Shown here one piece after another: positions 1,665 through 50,467 of a DNA stretch of 64,000 nt. Each line of letters opens with the position of its first letter. The first letter of the stretch is position 1. The notes beneath the pieces were generated by a model, which did not search any database, was not told the DNA's origin, and saw only the letters and a program-made list of their open reading frames with translations. Both the position numbers and the translations under genes were made by a program. This DNA comes from Pseudomonadota bacterium (GTDB lineage: Bacteria > Pseudomonadota > Gammaproteobacteria > Acidiferrobacterales > Acidiferrobacteraceae), in assembly GCA_021841585.1 (NCBI GenBank), contig JAKBUS010000005.1, forward strand, positions 1 through 64,000. Direction: 5' to 3'.

Positions 1665-2651
1665 CTATTTTATGCGTTTCGCCAGATCCGCAGCGCGGAG
1701 ATGCGTGTATCGTTTAAGCATCTGCAGGGTCTTATGGCCAGTGATGCTGGCGACTTCCATGGGATTGAAGCCCTGCTCGAAAAACCGGCTAGTCGCCTCA
1801 TGGCGCAGATCGTGGAAGGTCAGGCCTTCGATGCCGGCGGCCTTGCAGACCCGCTCGAAGGCCTGCGAGATCGAATCGGGACGCATGCCCCACACCCGGC
1901 CATCCAGGCGCCTGGGCAGCGCATCCAGGACCGCGAGTGCGGCTGTGGATAGCGGCACTTGGCGCGGCGTGCCGTTTTTGGTTTCGGGTATTAGCAACAC
2001 CCGATCTTTTCGATCGAGGTGCTCCCAGCGCATCGCGGCGATCTCCCCGCGGCGCATGGCGGTCTCGATAGCCCAGGTGATGAGGGGGCCGATCTCGCCG
2101 CCGTAGGCGTGAGCGGCGGCCAGGAGGCGGGCTTGCTCGTCGTCGATGAGGCGGCGGTCGCGGCCGGCAGGCAGTCGGGGTTTGCGGACCATCTCCACGG
2201 GGTTTGCGAGCGACGCCATGCCCCATTCCGCGCGGGCGACATTGAAGAGGTGGGAGAGGAGGGCGAGATCCAGGCGGACGGTGTTCGGTCCGGCTCCTTC
2301 CGCCTGCCGCTGTTGCATAAAGGCCGCGATGTCCTTGCCCTGGATGCTCGCCATCGAGCGCCGGGCCAGGGTGCGGGCCTGGAGCCCTTTCACGCGGCGA
2401 CCTTCCCGGTCGGCATTCTTCTTGCTCGGCACGATTTCGCGCTGGTAGCGGGCCAGAGCCTCGCGCAAGGTGGTGTTTTCGGCCTCGGCCCGCGACACGA
2501 ACACCCCGCGGTCCATCTCGCCCTCGACTTGCCGCGCCCAAGCCTCAGCCTGGGCCTTAGTGTCACAGGTTTGGGTCAGCACACCGTATCCCTTCCGCTT
2601 CACGATGGCACGCCAGGACCCCGACCGCTTCTGAAAACACGCCATGGCCAC
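1665..2651 (-). CDS. Tyrosine recombinase / phage-type integrase
   Basis: 328 aa with R (AMRRGEI), K (TKNG), HxxR (HDLRH), H (GHKTLQM) and Y (KRYTHL) motifs; lies immediately downstream of the tRNA-Asn 3' end. Confidence 0.93.
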   Translation of the reverse strand: MAMACFQKRSGSWRAIVKRKGYGVLTQTCDTKAQAEAWARQVEGEMDRGVFVSRAEAENTTLREALARYQREIVPSKKNADREGRRVKGLQARTLARRSMASIQGKDIAAFMQQRQAEGAGPNTVRLDLALLSHLFNVARAEWGMASLANPVEMVRKPRLPAGRDRRLIDDEQARLLAAAHAYGGEIGPLITWAIETAMRRGEIAAMRWEHLDRKDRVLLIPETKNGTPRQVPLSTAALAVLDALPRRLDGRVWGMRPDSISQAFERVCKAAGIEGLTFHDLRHEATSRFFEQGFNPMEVASITGHKTLQMLKRYTHLRAADLAKRIK

Positions 2652-40810: not shown

Positions 40811-40886
40811 GGGTGCTTAGCTCAGTTGGTAGAGCGTCGCCCTTACAAGGCGAATGTCGGGGGTTCGAATCCCTCAGCACCCACCA
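40811..40886 (+). tRNA. tRNA-Val(TAC)
   Basis: GGGTGCTTAGCTCAGTTGGTAGAGCGTCGCCCTTACAAGGCGAATGTCGGGGGTTCGAATCCCTCAGCACCCACCA. Confidence 0.95.
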
Positions 40887-41259
40887 GTTGCCGCCAAGGA
40901 AAACAAAGAGTCAGATAATTCGTCTGCGGGGCGCTCCCGGGGCTTGGGGCTCTCAGTGAGACGAACTTCGTGGCGGCCATGATAGAGCGGCCGGGCGAAT
41001 GGCAGCAGTAGGCCAGGCCGATCAGGGTCCGGCGTGGTCATCCCAGCCAAATGGCGACCTTCGACGCCAAGGAGTAGGCGAGGCAGGATCGAGCCGGAAG
41101 AAAAAATGGGCGTGCTTGGGCGGGCGCACTATCACCGTGGATGCTTTGAACGAAAAATACCGCACCTTGCGCGTTTTTGGGGAAAAGGATTCTTTCAAAT
41201 GGCGCGTGTTTTGCCCGTGGTTCATCCGCCACCTGGGTCGCAAGTAGTCCCTGTCGTCA

Positions 41260-41667
41260 CTACTTACTCGGTTCTGCATACAGTTGACCAGAAAGCACCA
41301 TTTGGATGGCGATCAGGGGATTGACGCCTTGGTTGGCCGTGGTCGGCAGGTAGCGGGAGGTGCGGCAGTAAGCTTGCGGCTATTCGGCCTTGCGGAAACG
41401 GCCCGGGACCTTTTGTTTGGCCTTGCTCATGCGCGGGCTCCGGTCGGCGCCGTTATTGGTGAATAAGACGTCCGAGTCGCACGCAAACAACCGCATGGCG
41501 CCCTCGTGTTTCTTTAATCGCTCGCAGAGATTATGGGCGTGGGCCACGCCCTCCACAAAAAAGGGGTTGTGCACGGCCCACAATGTTGAACTTGGCGATG
41601 CGGCCGCGTTGGCCGTTGGACCGCGCCGGGCGCACAGTGAGCGGTTGCCGCTGGCGCTTGGAGACAT
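41260..41667 (-). pseudogene. IS66-type transposase C-terminal remnant
   Basis: HNLCERLKKHEGAMRLFACDSDVLFTNNGADRSPRMSKAKQKVPGRFRKAE-stop-PQAYCRTSRYLPTTANQGVNPLIAIQMVLSGQLYAEPSK; matches the IS66 C-terminal pattern (FTNNxAERDxRMxKVKQKxSGxFR...AYCRISSYLxTxANQG) with an internal stop; 5' part unalignable by eye. Confidence 0.75.
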
Positions 41668-42347
41668 GGGTACAGGTGTTCGGCAGCAGGCGCTTTATGT
41701 TGGCACCCAGACATAGCCCCGCCTCGACGATGAAGACGGGCTCGGTGAGGAGGTGCGCGATTGCCGATTCTGGCGCATGGGCCCTCAGTGATCACGATCC
41801 ATGAGAATGGGCGATCACGAGAGGCCAGAAAACGCATTGGTACGGACCCCGCGCTAGTTCATCACCTAGAACTCCACGCCCTGCCAGTCGAGCAACGGCT
41901 CGTTATACAACCCAAGGGGTGGCCGGAGAGGATCACGGGACGCCGGCTGGTCTTCAGCGCGCGATGATCGGCCCCTTCGCGCTCCTAGCGATTGCGCCGC
42001 CCAGACGTGCGCGTGGCGTGCCGGTAGGGCGTCTGTATCGCCTTATGGCACATCGCATGTGTCGCTACAGTGACTCCCGAGCGCACCGGATCGTTCGCGA
42101 TCTGACCGACAGGCCTTTGCTCCTCATGCGGTCATCGCCAAGGTCGAATTCGTGTCCGCTTTCAGCGCGCCGACGTACCCAGCGTGCTTGCCTCCAGCCT
42201 TGTCAAGACTTTGTCCTAACCTGGCAAAGAGGTGCGCGGGCCCTGGCGGTCGGCGAATAATCACGAGCGACCTTAGGCGAACGCCATGTCCCAAAAGCCC
42301 GGGCTAGACAATACTAATGTTTCGGGTTAAGAAGGGGGCATAGACCA

Positions 42348-42377
42348 TTGACGAAATTTCATTAAACAGCTTATAAG
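42348..42377 (+). promoter_or_regulatory. Sigma70-type promoter 7 nt from the start of the second MltD-like gene
   Basis: TTGACG-N18-TATAAG; -10 ends at 42377, GTG start at 42385. Confidence 0.55.
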
Positions 42378-42384
42378 ATGGATT

Positions 42385-44604
42385 GTGATTAGACCCCAAT
42401 CCCATAGAAGTCGTTGGCGTGCGTGCACCGCCCGTCTAACCTTAGGCGCGCTGTTTGCGGGCCTTTCTGGTTGCGCATCTCTGTCCGGCTTTGGTGCCGG
42501 CTCAGGTGGTGTATTTGGACATCAATCCGCTCGGTTATCGGTAGCGGATCGTGCCGCCCGTGTTGTTACGGTGAGTCATAAAAACACGGACCGGCATCCC
42601 CCTGGGTCCAGTGGGGGCGTTGCCGCACGCAAAATGGATAAGACCATGGCTGCCCGCCGGGCCATCACCGGTCAGAAGTATACCAACCTCTGGGACCGCA
42701 TCCGCGCGGGTTTCCGGTTGCCACCCATGCGGGGTCCGCTAGTCACCCAGTACGAGGAGTGGTTTGAACACAATCCCCGATATGTAGAAGGCATGTTAGA
42801 GCGGGCGAATTTATATTTGTATCAAATTGTGCAAGCCGTACAGAAGCGGCATATGCCCATGGAGATAGCTCTTTTGCCGGCTATTGAAAGCGGCTATTCA
42901 CCCAATGCCTATTCTTCTGCGGGGGCCATAGGGTTATGGCAAATCGAGCCCTCAACCGGAGGGTTGTGGGGCCTTAAGGATAATTGGTGGTACAGCGGGG
43001 CGCGCGATGTTGTTGCCTCTACCAATGCCGCACTCGATTACCTGCAGGCCCTGCACAATCAGTTCCACAGCTGGAACCTTGCCCTGGCCGCCTATAATTG
43101 TGGAGCCGGCATGGTGCAGTGGGCGATCGATAATAACAAGGCCAAAGGTCTCGGCACTCATTATCGGGAACTGCGCCTACCGCTCCAAACCGAACATTAC
43201 GTCCCGAAGCTGATGGCCTTCGTGAATATCGTGCGCGATCCCGCGAAGTTTGGTTTACGGCTTCGCGATATCCCAAATAGCCCCTACTTCGTCCGTGTGA
43301 ATACGGGCGGCCAAATCAGTTTAAGCGTGGTTGCGCGTCTTGCTGATATGTCACTCAATCAATTGGCCGCCATAAACCCGGGACTTAAGCATTGGGCAAC
43401 TGCGCCCAATGGACCCTATACCGTTCTTGTTCCTGTGGCCACAAAAGCGGCTTTATTGGAAGGCTTGAGTCAGCTACCTCCGCAGGATCGGATGCAGTGG
43501 GCGCGTCATATTGTGATACCAGGCAACACCATTAGCGGTATCGCGCAAGAATATGGGGTTAGCGTCCACGCAATCATGACAACAAACCATCTCCACGGTA
43601 GCTTTCTCCGTGTTGGGCAGCGACTCCTTATTCCTGTCGCGGGCCGTAGACTCGTAGTTCCAGCACAGGGGGGGGTGTACACCGTGGCCCCGGGCGACAC
43701 CTTAAGTGGCATCGCCCAACAGTATGGGGTGCCCATCACGACGCTGATGGCGGTGAATAATTTGAGGGGCCCGTACCTGCAGGTAGGGGAGGTGCTGCGT
43801 ATTCCTTCAGGGGGTGAGGGTTCCCCCGCTCAACCGCCTACCCCAACGCCGGCCGCCGCTCCTGTTCCGGTTGCCGCTCCCGTTTTGGCCGTCAACACCA
43901 TGACGGCGGCTAGCACCGTCACCGTCACGGTGGCCCCGGGCGACACCTTAAGTGGCATCGCCCAACAGTATGGGGTGCCCATCACGACGCTGATGGCGGT
44001 GAATAATTTGAGGGGCCCGTACCTGGAGGCGGGGGAGGTGCTGCGTATCCCGGTCTCCAGCGACGCTTGTACGGTGGCCCCGGGCGACACCTTAAGTGGC
44101 ATCGCCCAACAGTATGGGGTGCCCATCACGACGCTGATGGCGGTGAATAATTTGAGGGGCCCGTACCTGCAGGTAGGGGAGGTGCTGCGTATTCCTTCAG
44201 GGGGTGAGGGTTCCCCCGCTCAACCGCCTACCCCAACGCCGGCCGCCGCTCCTGTTCCGGTTGCCGCTCCCGTTTTGGCCGTCAACACCATGACGGCGGC
44301 TAGCACCGTCACCGTCACGGTGGCCCCGGGCGACACCTTAAGTGGCATCGCCCAACAGTATGGGGTGCCCATCACGACGCTGATGGCGGTGAATAATTTG
44401 AGGGGCCCGTACCTGGAGGCGGGGGAGGTGCTGCGTATCCCGGTCTCCAGCGACGCTTGTACGGTGGCCCCGGGCGACACCTTAAGTGGCATCGCCCAAC
44501 AGTATGGGGTGCCCATCACGACGCTGATGGCGGTGAATAATTTGAGGGGCCCGTACCTGCAGGTAGGGGAGGTGCTGCGTATTCCGGTTGCTAGCAATGC
44601 ATGA
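42385..44604 (+). CDS. MltD-like lytic transglycosylase lipoprotein with six LysM modules
   Basis: Lipobox GALFAGLSGC; SLT core ALLPAIESGYSPNAYSSAGAIGLWQIEPSTGGLWGL; repeated VAPGDTLSGIAQQYGVPITTLMAVNNLRGPYL. Confidence 0.93.
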   Translation: MIRPQSHRSRWRACTARLTLGALFAGLSGCASLSGFGAGSGGVFGHQSARLSVADRAARVVTVSHKNTDRHPPGSSGGVAARKMDKTMAARRAITGQKYTNLWDRIRAGFRLPPMRGPLVTQYEEWFEHNPRYVEGMLERANLYLYQIVQAVQKRHMPMEIALLPAIESGYSPNAYSSAGAIGLWQIEPSTGGLWGLKDNWWYSGARDVVASTNAALDYLQALHNQFHSWNLALAAYNCGAGMVQWAIDNNKAKGLGTHYRELRLPLQTEHYVPKLMAFVNIVRDPAKFGLRLRDIPNSPYFVRVNTGGQISLSVVARLADMSLNQLAAINPGLKHWATAPNGPYTVLVPVATKAALLEGLSQLPPQDRMQWARHIVIPGNTISGIAQEYGVSVHAIMTTNHLHGSFLRVGQRLLIPVAGRRLVVPAQGGVYTVAPGDTLSGIAQQYGVPITTLMAVNNLRGPYLQVGEVLRIPSGGEGSPAQPPTPTPAAAPVPVAAPVLAVNTMTAASTVTVTVAPGDTLSGIAQQYGVPITTLMAVNNLRGPYLEAGEVLRIPVSSDACTVAPGDTLSGIAQQYGVPITTLMAVNNLRGPYLQVGEVLRIPSGGEGSPAQPPTPTPAAAPVPVAAPVLAVNTMTAASTVTVTVAPGDTLSGIAQQYGVPITTLMAVNNLRGPYLEAGEVLRIPVSSDACTVAPGDTLSGIAQQYGVPITTLMAVNNLRGPYLQVGEVLRIPVASNA
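43684..44585 (+). repeat. 390-bp tandem repeat, about 2.3 copies, encoding LysM pairs
   Basis: Copies at 43684-44073 and 44074-44463 look identical by eye; partial copy 44464-44585. A 96-bp LysM core recurs five times (starts 43684, 43930, 44074, 44320, 44464). Confidence 0.93.
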
Positions 44605-45386
44605 GTTTTGTCGGCCGTTCGGGATTATTTTGGCGACACCCTCAATCCGCTAAAGCGGGTAAGCTTTTTGCCAAGTGACAGGGTCCGTGGGTATGCTCCA
44701 AGGGGCTTGCACACACATCCTGCGGCGTTTGATTCCTTGCCTTGGGACAGACGGCCCCGTCCGAATCACCCCCAGACGGCGGCCGATGTCTGGGCGCCCA
44801 CTCCGCCGGAGACATTCCAGGTGGAGGCGTGATGTGTTGGGGAAGCGGCACCTCTTGCCCGAATGCCCGCCGCTGCATATTTAGCGCGCCTGCGCGATCC
44901 CTGTGATCTTCAAATTTGCAGGGCGGGCATCGCCCGTTGTGCCCTGTGGTGACACCCGAGGCGTTGCCCTGCCCAGGATATTATCGGGGTTGCCGACGCA
45001 TGGCGCCTCGATGGCCGGCGCCTTACCGAAGTCGATGGCCTGCCGAGTCCCCTTGTCGTGTGGGCCCCGGGGCGCCGGCGAGCGATTTCCCCTCGGGCCC
45101 GTTGTGACCACGGGTCGGCTTGCGTCAGCGCGCCGCCCCTGTGCCGATGCCGGCCGGGCCGCGCGGGATCGGTTAGGCGTCGCCAGCGCACAAGGATTGC
45201 CAGCAGGTCGCGAGGCATGTTCTAATAGATAGGATCAGCTGAAGGGCCTGAGCGATGCCCATCGCTGGTGGCGATGGCCACCAGGGACGCAGTTGAATCG
45301 ATGCGAAGGCGTAGTCGATAAGCGGGCAGCCCGGTGCGAACGGATACCGGGATCGCGAATCGATCATGTCGGCACCATGTACGTTG

Positions 45387-45463
45387 GGAGTGGTAGTTCA
45401 GTTGGTTAGAATACCGGCCTGTCACGCCGGGGGTCGCGGGTTCGAGTCCCGTCCACTCCGCCA
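45387..45463 (+). tRNA. tRNA-Asp(GTC)
   Basis: GGAGTGGTAGTTCAGTTGGTTAGAATACCGGCCTGTCACGCCGGGGGTCGCGGGTTCGAGTCCCGTCCACTCCGCCA. Confidence 0.96.
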
Positions 45464-48970: not shown

Positions 48971-50467
48971 TTACTCGGTGACGCGCGTTTTGGCTATCGC
49001 CGACGGGACCATGGCCGGTGACGCCCAGATCAGGATGCGTTGTCCGAGGCGCAGGACGTCATGCGCATTCAGCACGTTCCAGCGCTCGAGCTGCGTCACG
49101 TAGACGCGATAGCGCTCTGCGATACTCCACAAGGTATCGCCTGGCCGCACGCGGTGGATGATCTTGACGCGCCGCGTAGCGGTACGCGCCAGGGCCACTT
49201 CCGTGCGCGCCGCGTGATGGCGGGACACCACGAGACGCCGCCCGGCCATGGGGATCAGAATGCTTTGCCCGACATGGAGGAGGTTGCCGTAGAGATGGTT
49301 GGTGGAACGGATCGAGGCTATGCTCACGCCATATTCGCGGGCGATCCCATAGAGCGTATCTCCCGGCACCACGCGGTGACGCGCCCACTGCATGCGGTCC
49401 TGGGGCGGCAGCTGGCTCAGGCCCTCGATGAGCGCGGCCTTGGTGGCCACCGGCACGAGGATGGTGTGCGGGCCGTTGGGCGCGGTCGCCCATTGCGTGA
49501 AGCCGGGGTTTATGGCGTAGAGCTGCTTGAGCGACATATTGGCGAGCCGCGCGATCACGCTGAGATCGACCTGCGAGCCGGTATTGACGCGCACGAAATA
49601 GGGACTGTTGGGGATGGCGCGCAGCGTCAGGCCGTATTTCGCGGGATCCCGCACGATATTCACGAACGCCATGAGCTTAGGCACATAGTGCTCGGTCTGC
49701 AGCGGCAGTCTGAGATCGCGGTAATGAGTGCCGAGCCCGAGGGCCTGGTTGTGGGCGATAGCGGCCTCGACCGTGCCTTGGCCGGCGTTGTAGGCGGCCA
49801 AGGCGAGATTCCAGCTATGAAATTGGTTGTGAAGTGATTGGAGGAAGTCGAGGGCGGCGTTGGTGGAGGCGATGATGTCGCGCTCGCCGTTGTACCACCA
49901 GTTGTTCTTGAGGCCCCAGAGCCGCCCGGTGGACGGCTCGAACTGCCAGAGGCCAATGGCCGCGGATCGCGAATAGGCGTCGGGCGAATAGCCGCTCTCG
50001 ATGGCCGGCAGCAAGGCGATCTCCATCGGCATATTGCGCTTGCTGACGTCCTCCACGATCTGGTAGAGGTATAAATTGGCGCGCTGCAGCATGTTTTCCA
50101 CATACTGGGGGTTGTTCGCGAACCACTGTTCGTAGCGCGCAACCCGCGGCCCTTCCATGTGCGGCAGCCGAAATCCGGCGCGAATGCGGCTCCAAAGGTT
50201 TGAATATTTTATGTCGCTCGCGTCAACCGCGTGGCCGGTCCGGGTGTGATCGATCGCCGGCACTGGGCACTCGCCAACCTTGACTACCGCCGGCGCCCGT
50301 GCCGCCGCCTTGTGCGAAAGCTTGGTCTTGATGGCGTTCGGGTTGGGAGGCGATGTGGCTCCCGGCGAGCCAGGTCGCGACATAGGTGTCATGGCGCAAC
50401 CTGCGAGACCGGTAAGCAGGACGCCGAGGCCCGCGTAGCGAAGGGTTTTAGTGGGAGCGGTTGCCAT
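48971..50467 (-). CDS. mltD: Membrane-bound lytic murein transglycosylase D with two LysM modules
   Basis: Lipobox VLLTGLAGC; SLT core; HRVVPGDTLYGIAREYGV and HRVRPGDTLWSIAERYRV; next to gloB. Confidence 0.94.
   Translation of the reverse strand: MATAPTKTLRYAGLGVLLTGLAGCAMTPMSRPGSPGATSPPNPNAIKTKLSHKAAARAPAVVKVGECPVPAIDHTRTGHAVDASDIKYSNLWSRIRAGFRLPHMEGPRVARYEQWFANNPQYVENMLQRANLYLYQIVEDVSKRNMPMEIALLPAIESGYSPDAYSRSAAIGLWQFEPSTGRLWGLKNNWWYNGERDIIASTNAALDFLQSLHNQFHSWNLALAAYNAGQGTVEAAIAHNQALGLGTHYRDLRLPLQTEHYVPKLMAFVNIVRDPAKYGLTLRAIPNSPYFVRVNTGSQVDLSVIARLANMSLKQLYAINPGFTQWATAPNGPHTILVPVATKAALIEGLSQLPPQDRMQWARHRVVPGDTLYGIAREYGVSIASIRSTNHLYGNLLHVGQSILIPMAGRRLVVSRHHAARTEVALARTATRRVKIIHRVRPGDTLWSIAERYRVYVTQLERWNVLNAHDVLRLGQRILIWASPAMVPSAIAKTRVTE

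Follow-up and report, generated by a model that had tools for sequence, protein, structure and literature searches.

A probably acquired second MltD-like lytic transglycosylase with a recently expanded LysM array in an acid-mine Acidiferrobacter

A tandem array of apparently exact 390-bp repeats closes the coding region of a predicted cell-wall hydrolase in a 64-kb stretch of DNA (hereafter the window) from an acid-mine Acidiferrobacter, the genome of which amounts to 2.57 Mb in 124 contigs. The locus raises the question of how such an array arose, how far its unit count can be trusted, and whether it serves as a contingency locus for wall binding, as had been proposed in the initial annotation of the sequence.

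The features of the locus are collected in Table 1. The view of the gene product as a cell-wall hydrolase was borne out by the combination of an MltD-like SLT domain with LysM modules, and the repeats were confirmed as LysM peptidoglycan-binding modules with PF01476 and with an HMM built from the LysM sequences of the family. Counting with the latter gave a total of six LysM in mltD1, i.e., LysM1 and five in the array. The nearest curated family is MltD, and the protein is labeled MltD-like because its NF008050 score of 400 bits lies under the NCBIfam equivalog cut-off of 508. Among solved structures the nearest chain is 8rhe, whose alignment covers residues 99-417 and takes in the IES motif with the catalytic Glu. 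In mltD1 the array stands where other MltD proteins carry their terminal LysM (RPGDTLWSIAQRYRVYVSQLERWN type), a module that mltD1 lacks, and the protein ends with the last LysM at RIPVASNA. A promoter-like TTGACG-N18-TATAAG was also observed at 42348-42377, a few bases before the GTG at 42385, leaving almost no leader; judging from the sequence, either a mis-assigned start codon or a nearly leaderless message may explain this.

Table 1. Coordinates of mltD1, its repeat array and the surrounding features in the window.
Feature	Position	Strand	Basis
mltD1, 739-aa MltD-like outer-membrane lipoprotein lytic transglycosylase (predicted), six LysM, putative GTG start	42385..44604	+	ORF; PF01464 SLT, PF01476 LysM
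Lipoprotein signal peptide (predicted), ending in lipobox LSGC (Cys30)	42385..42474	+	translation inspected by eye
SLT catalytic domain, PF01464, residues 150-254, E 3.3e-25	42832..43146	+	domain search
Predicted catalytic Glu168	GAA 42886-42888	+	IES motif aligned with solved homologue 8rhe
LysM1, conserved first LysM common to all MltD orthologues	43513..43650	+	family-built HMM, residues 377-422
Repeat unit 1 (390 bp): LysM A1, Pro/Ala linker, LysM B1	43684..44073	+	repeat comparison
Repeat unit 2 (390 bp): LysM A2, linker, LysM B2; base-for-base copy of unit 1	44074..44463	+	
Partial third copy (122 bp): core of LysM A3	44464..44585	+	
Pro/Ala/Thr-rich linker 1 (second copy 44206-44319)	43816..43929	+	LysM boundaries (HMM) and translation
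tRNA-Val(TAC), left border of insertion spot	40811..40886	+	
tRNA-Asp(GTC), right border of insertion spot	45387..45463	+	
mltD2, resident 498-aa MltD, two LysM, next to gloB	48971..50467	-	context gene, outside array

The array spans 43684-44585 and is perfectly periodic at 390 bp over 902 bp with 0 mismatches, comprising two full units plus a 122-bp part of a third. The base-for-base identity of the two units and the partial copy described in the initial annotation are thus present in the assembled sequence, as is the 96-bp LysM core reported to recur five times, which is exact at each of its starts (43684, 43930, 44074, 44320, and 44464). Read as LysM-coding units of 143 bp, the array holds five, which alternate between two types (A-B-A-B-A) at spacings of 246/144/246/144 bp, and the tail of LysM A3 past 44585 is nearer to type B than to type A. 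As the array is in frame at the 3' end of ORF 42385-44604, any change in copy number by 390-bp units would preserve the reading frame, as had been claimed. A chance repeat was excluded, since the array is the sole exact direct repeat of at least 18 bp within the 64-kb window and the longest such repeat in 20 randomized windows measured 19 bp. Furthermore, the 390-bp unit was not found elsewhere in the same genome, which rules out a recent copy of another genomic locus.

The borders of identity inform on the age of the array. The five cores show 0 differences over 96 bp, including all synonymous sites, while over the following 26 positions A and B show 4 differences, with more further on; at the 4/26 rate, the chance of 0 differences in 96 positions would be about 1e-7 by our own arithmetic, with a boundary chosen post hoc. 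This sharp edge indicates recent duplication or conversion, and the recent duplication or recombination suggested previously therefore fits the data. The last module, A3, is a mosaic of an A core and a B-like tail, as expected from unequal recombination.

In addition, LysM expansions were found in relatives of the host. The resident mltD of G013, G016, and G017 (loci L038, L036, and L039, respectively) encodes four LysM and that of G014, in which the gene is split, at least four, i.e., two and at least two extra modules, whereas all other orthologues counted, mltD2 included, have two. The repeat periods in these four genes are 183-189 bp, those of G013, G016, and G017 falling within 183-186 bp. 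Within the best 120 bp the copies are 100% identical in G017, 97% in G014, 95% in G013, and 84% in G016, with longest exact repeats of 121 bp in G017 and 114 bp in G014. At 84% copy identity, the G016 duplication would be an older one. The resident mltD of the four relatives thus acquired LysM repeats independently, near-identical in three of them, making array growth by intragenic duplication a recurrent process in the family.

Among the alternatives, the one that survives best is an assembly effect, according to which the true allele holds either a single unit (A-linker-B-A) or a number above two, and the pair of exact units stems from a walked graph loop; we regard this as a substantial possibility that nevertheless falls short of being probable. 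The host genome looks like a short-read MAG: no 16S gene was detected in its 124 contigs, and two contig ends, G000:C69 and C95 (L092, L093), one of them an end of the contig that carries the array, share a 126-bp overlap and then diverge as in short-read assembly, which suggests a strain mixture in a non-clonal sample. The k-mer sets of the one-unit (A-linker-B-A), two-unit, and three-unit alleles are the same at k = 55, 77, and 99, and even at k = 127 only 4 k-mers separate the one-unit from the two-unit allele, the three-unit allele adding none. The number of units was therefore chosen by the assembler, and a walk around a loop in its graph yields whole 390-bp units that are exactly identical. 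Consistent with such an effect, the resident mltD of G014 is split inside the homologous LysM array, between the end of G014:C42 (L048) and the start of G014:C1 (L047), which share a 187-bp stretch and belong to an assembly with short-read style contig names. On the other hand, the host contig crosses the array into unique flanks on both sides, and assemblers collapse repeats more often than they expand them. Moreover, even a one-unit allele would retain identical 122-bp A copies and a 96-bp core in common with B, so that the recent duplication stands at any unit number. With regard to the short-read assembly collapse that the initial annotation asked to check, the k-mer sets make the number of units and their whole-unit identity unreliable, while the 122-bp A copies and the 96-bp core hold, as these identities fit within single reads and are independent of the doubt about unit count.

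A point that the initial annotation missed is that mltD1 represents a second, probably acquired, mltD in an insertion spot flanked by tRNA genes. In every relative whose neighborhood was examined mltD occupies the gloB location, as mltD2 does in the host, with gloB, a methyltransferase, rnhA, and dnaQ as its neighbors. The gene mltD1 lies away from this context, 4.4 kb from mltD2, and is present only in the host (1/18 genomes of the family), having not been found in the other 17. The two proteins share 66-68% identity, and mltD2 carries the lipobox LAGC where mltD1 has LSGC. In the ML tree, mltD1 falls outside the genus clade that holds mltD2 (support 95/94) and its nearest sequence is that of G014, a member of another genus of the family, at 78% identity, a placement that is unsure given the long branch of 0.41. 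The part of mltD1 outside the array has a GC3 of 0.57 and a CAI-like value of 0.42, versus 0.77-0.85 and 0.61-0.73, respectively, in the neighboring genes and mltD2. The dN between mltD1 and mltD2 is 0.26 with dS saturated, indicating that mltD1 is under purifying selection. No closer relatives of mltD1 above the set limit were detected among 369 genomes of the class except for members of the order, and a scan of genome contigs retrieved no closer relative either; a donor was found in neither collection. Conflicting phylogeny, patchy occurrence, and aberrant composition, which are the marks of a xenolog, are all seen in mltD1, with the reservation that its placement is unsure from the long branch. 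Judging from these sequence features, mltD1 is probably an acquired xenolog from an unsampled relative.

The competing explanation for the second copy, which we consider unlikely although deserving of some weight, is duplication of mltD2 within the lineage followed by fast evolution and loss of the terminal LysM, with no transfer involved. The location of the two genes within 5 kb of each other and their membership in one family type at 66-68% identity would agree with it. Nevertheless, the tree puts mltD1 outside the genus clade, the sequence most identical to it comes from another genus, the composition of mltD1 is aberrant, and the same site in G004 and G008 bears no trace of it. A recent duplication of mltD2 within the genome is disfavored by both the tree and the composition.

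Acquisition of mltD1 would also agree with the nature of the site. The gap between tRNA-Val and tRNA-Asp (40887-45386) contains mltD1 alone, while the two tRNA genes are ~10-15 bp apart in most relatives and ~0.3 kb apart in G013 and G012. In G004 the gap measures 1.7 kb and contains an fdhD-like gene, and in G008 it measures 5.35 kb and contains an fdhD-like gene together with IS30-like and IS110-like transposases, all named from their translations. Since the contents of the gap differ among relatives, the spot is one that accepts insertions. Approximately 200 bp directly before tRNA-Asp are common to the host, G004, and G008 at 75% identity; a remnant of the fdhD-like insertion of the latter two was searched for in the host gap and was not found. 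A tRNA-using integrative element was rejected, as neither an integrase nor a duplicated tRNA stretch of at least 11 bp was found in the gap, a result that also weighs against the insertion of mltD1 proposed below. The only RNA elements detected there are the two tRNAs. A phage or defense origin of mltD1 was rejected as well, given that PADLOC gave no match to mltD1 or to the two small upstream ORFs tested and viral contigs gave no exact match to a 30-bp word of the array. Elsewhere in the window, an ORF at 1665-2651 (-) that is tyrosine recombinase-like, judged from its translation, adjoins tRNA-Asn (2733-2808) and could possibly mark an integrated element at the contig start.

Taken together, we favor, with moderate confidence, the view that mltD1 is an acquired second MltD-type enzyme whose array has grown stepwise by in-frame LysM duplication, strengthening or lengthening its anchoring to the wall. 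The gene would have come from an unsampled member or neighbor of the Acidiferrobacteraceae, with the tRNA-Val/tRNA-Asp gap as its site of insertion. The secreted protein is predicted to be lipid-anchored to the outer membrane via its N-terminus; by analogy with the family, its SLT domain would cleave glycan strands and its C-terminal LysM array would hold peptidoglycan. The first step of growth may have given the LysM pair A-linker-B, after which unequal recombination between near-identical modules would have inserted further complete 390-bp units in frame while keeping the cores identical. Related species have undergone intragenic LysM duplication of a similar kind, independently, in their resident mltD. 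Homologous recombination across identical stretches of up to 512 bp could in principle remove 390-bp units or restore them. As to function, the peptidoglycan affinity of LysM modules rises with their number (PMC4083421), and in Escherichia coli the suppression of endopeptidase loss by MltD depends on Glu125 and drops severely when the LysM domains are absent (PMC10931528). Judging from other LysM enzymes, additional modules would provide tighter or longer-reaching wall attachment, and in view of this literature a longer array most likely results in stronger or longer-reaching peptidoglycan anchoring of the outer-membrane lytic transglycosylase.

The contingency locus put forward in the initial annotation goes further, in that the 390-bp units would stay identical because rapid gain and loss of LysM is selected, yielding cells that differ in wall-binding strength. 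The prerequisite of long exact in-frame repeats is present, and known surface proteins with high-identity repeats do vary in repeat number among strains (PMC8201768). No variation in unit number was observed, however, the species being represented by one genome. Any recent duplication yields a similar pattern without selection for switching, and a change in LysM number tunes binding and provides no off-switch. The host is also a free-living acidophile, without the host immune pressure that is invoked for the known cases. We thus believe that a contingency role is quite improbable. A broader conjecture, to which we assign very little probability, is that a free-living Gram-negative acidophile uses a dedicated second MltD to tune how its outer membrane is anchored to the wall, LysM units being gained and lost by recombination; this would be a periplasmic counterpart of the Periscope Proteins, and the habit would recur across the Acidiferrobacteraceae.

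Most known high-identity domain arrays of bacterial envelope proteins belong to the surface proteins of pathogens. With LysM growth recurring in an outer-membrane lytic transglycosylase among environmental acidophiles, the question whether such arrays are favored by selection or simply accumulate can be put in a setting without a host. The case also cautions against taking the number of units, or their exact identity, at face value when such arrays come from short-read MAGs. Beyond the initial annotation, our analysis shows that mltD1 is a second and probably acquired copy, that it lies in an insertion spot, that array growth recurs in relatives, and that the assembly cannot count units.

With respect to known systems, mltD1 resembles MltD in its lipobox, its SLT domain with an aligned catalytic Glu, its C-terminal LysM, and the match to 8rhe over residues 99-417. 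It differs in having six LysM versus two in nearly all relatives, with the array replacing the usual terminal LysM, and in being a second copy outside the gloB context that scores under the NCBIfam equivalog cut-off. The LysM-expanded mltD genes of G013, G014, G016, and G017 similarly carry extra, mostly near-identical LysM after LysM1, but these are resident gloB-linked genes with single-LysM units of 183-189 bp and have kept the terminal LysM. Enterococcus faecalis AtlA and Lactococcus AcmA are also wall hydrolases with tandem LysM and low-complexity linkers, the binding of which rises with module number (PMC4083421). These are Gram-positive glucosaminidases, while mltD1 is predicted to be an outer-membrane lytic transglycosylase, and the LysM modules of AtlA are imperfect repeats (PMC10113225), unlike the exact units of mltD1. 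Finally, Periscope Proteins, the class that comes closest to mltD1, are built of tandem folded domains with high DNA identity that are substrates for homologous recombination, and their repeat number differs between strains (PMC8201768; PMC9704523), the variation being greatest where DNA identity is highest (PMC8201768). LysM arrays have been named among the Periscope-type repeats (PMC9704523; PMC8201768), and one of these two studies states that short reads cannot resolve such repeats (PMC8201768 or PMC9704523). The likeness lies in tandem domains that exceed 50 residues and are highly identical at the DNA level, the mltD1 unit being 130 aa long and the array 100% identical over 902 bp. In contrast, mltD1 is predicted to be periplasmic and N-terminally lipid-anchored, and its LysM modules with long flexible linkers would bind the wall and project no tip domain. 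Periscope Proteins show a stalk that links an N-terminal functional domain to a C-terminal LPXTG-type wall anchor, whereas mltD1 has no LPXTG, bears an N-terminal lipobox, and ends in LysM. Because it lacks the layout of an exposed stalk with a C-terminal anchor, and because the species is represented by a single genome, we do not file mltD1 as a Periscope Protein; the description that suits it best is that of a cell-wall hydrolase with multiple LysM whose array expanded recently.
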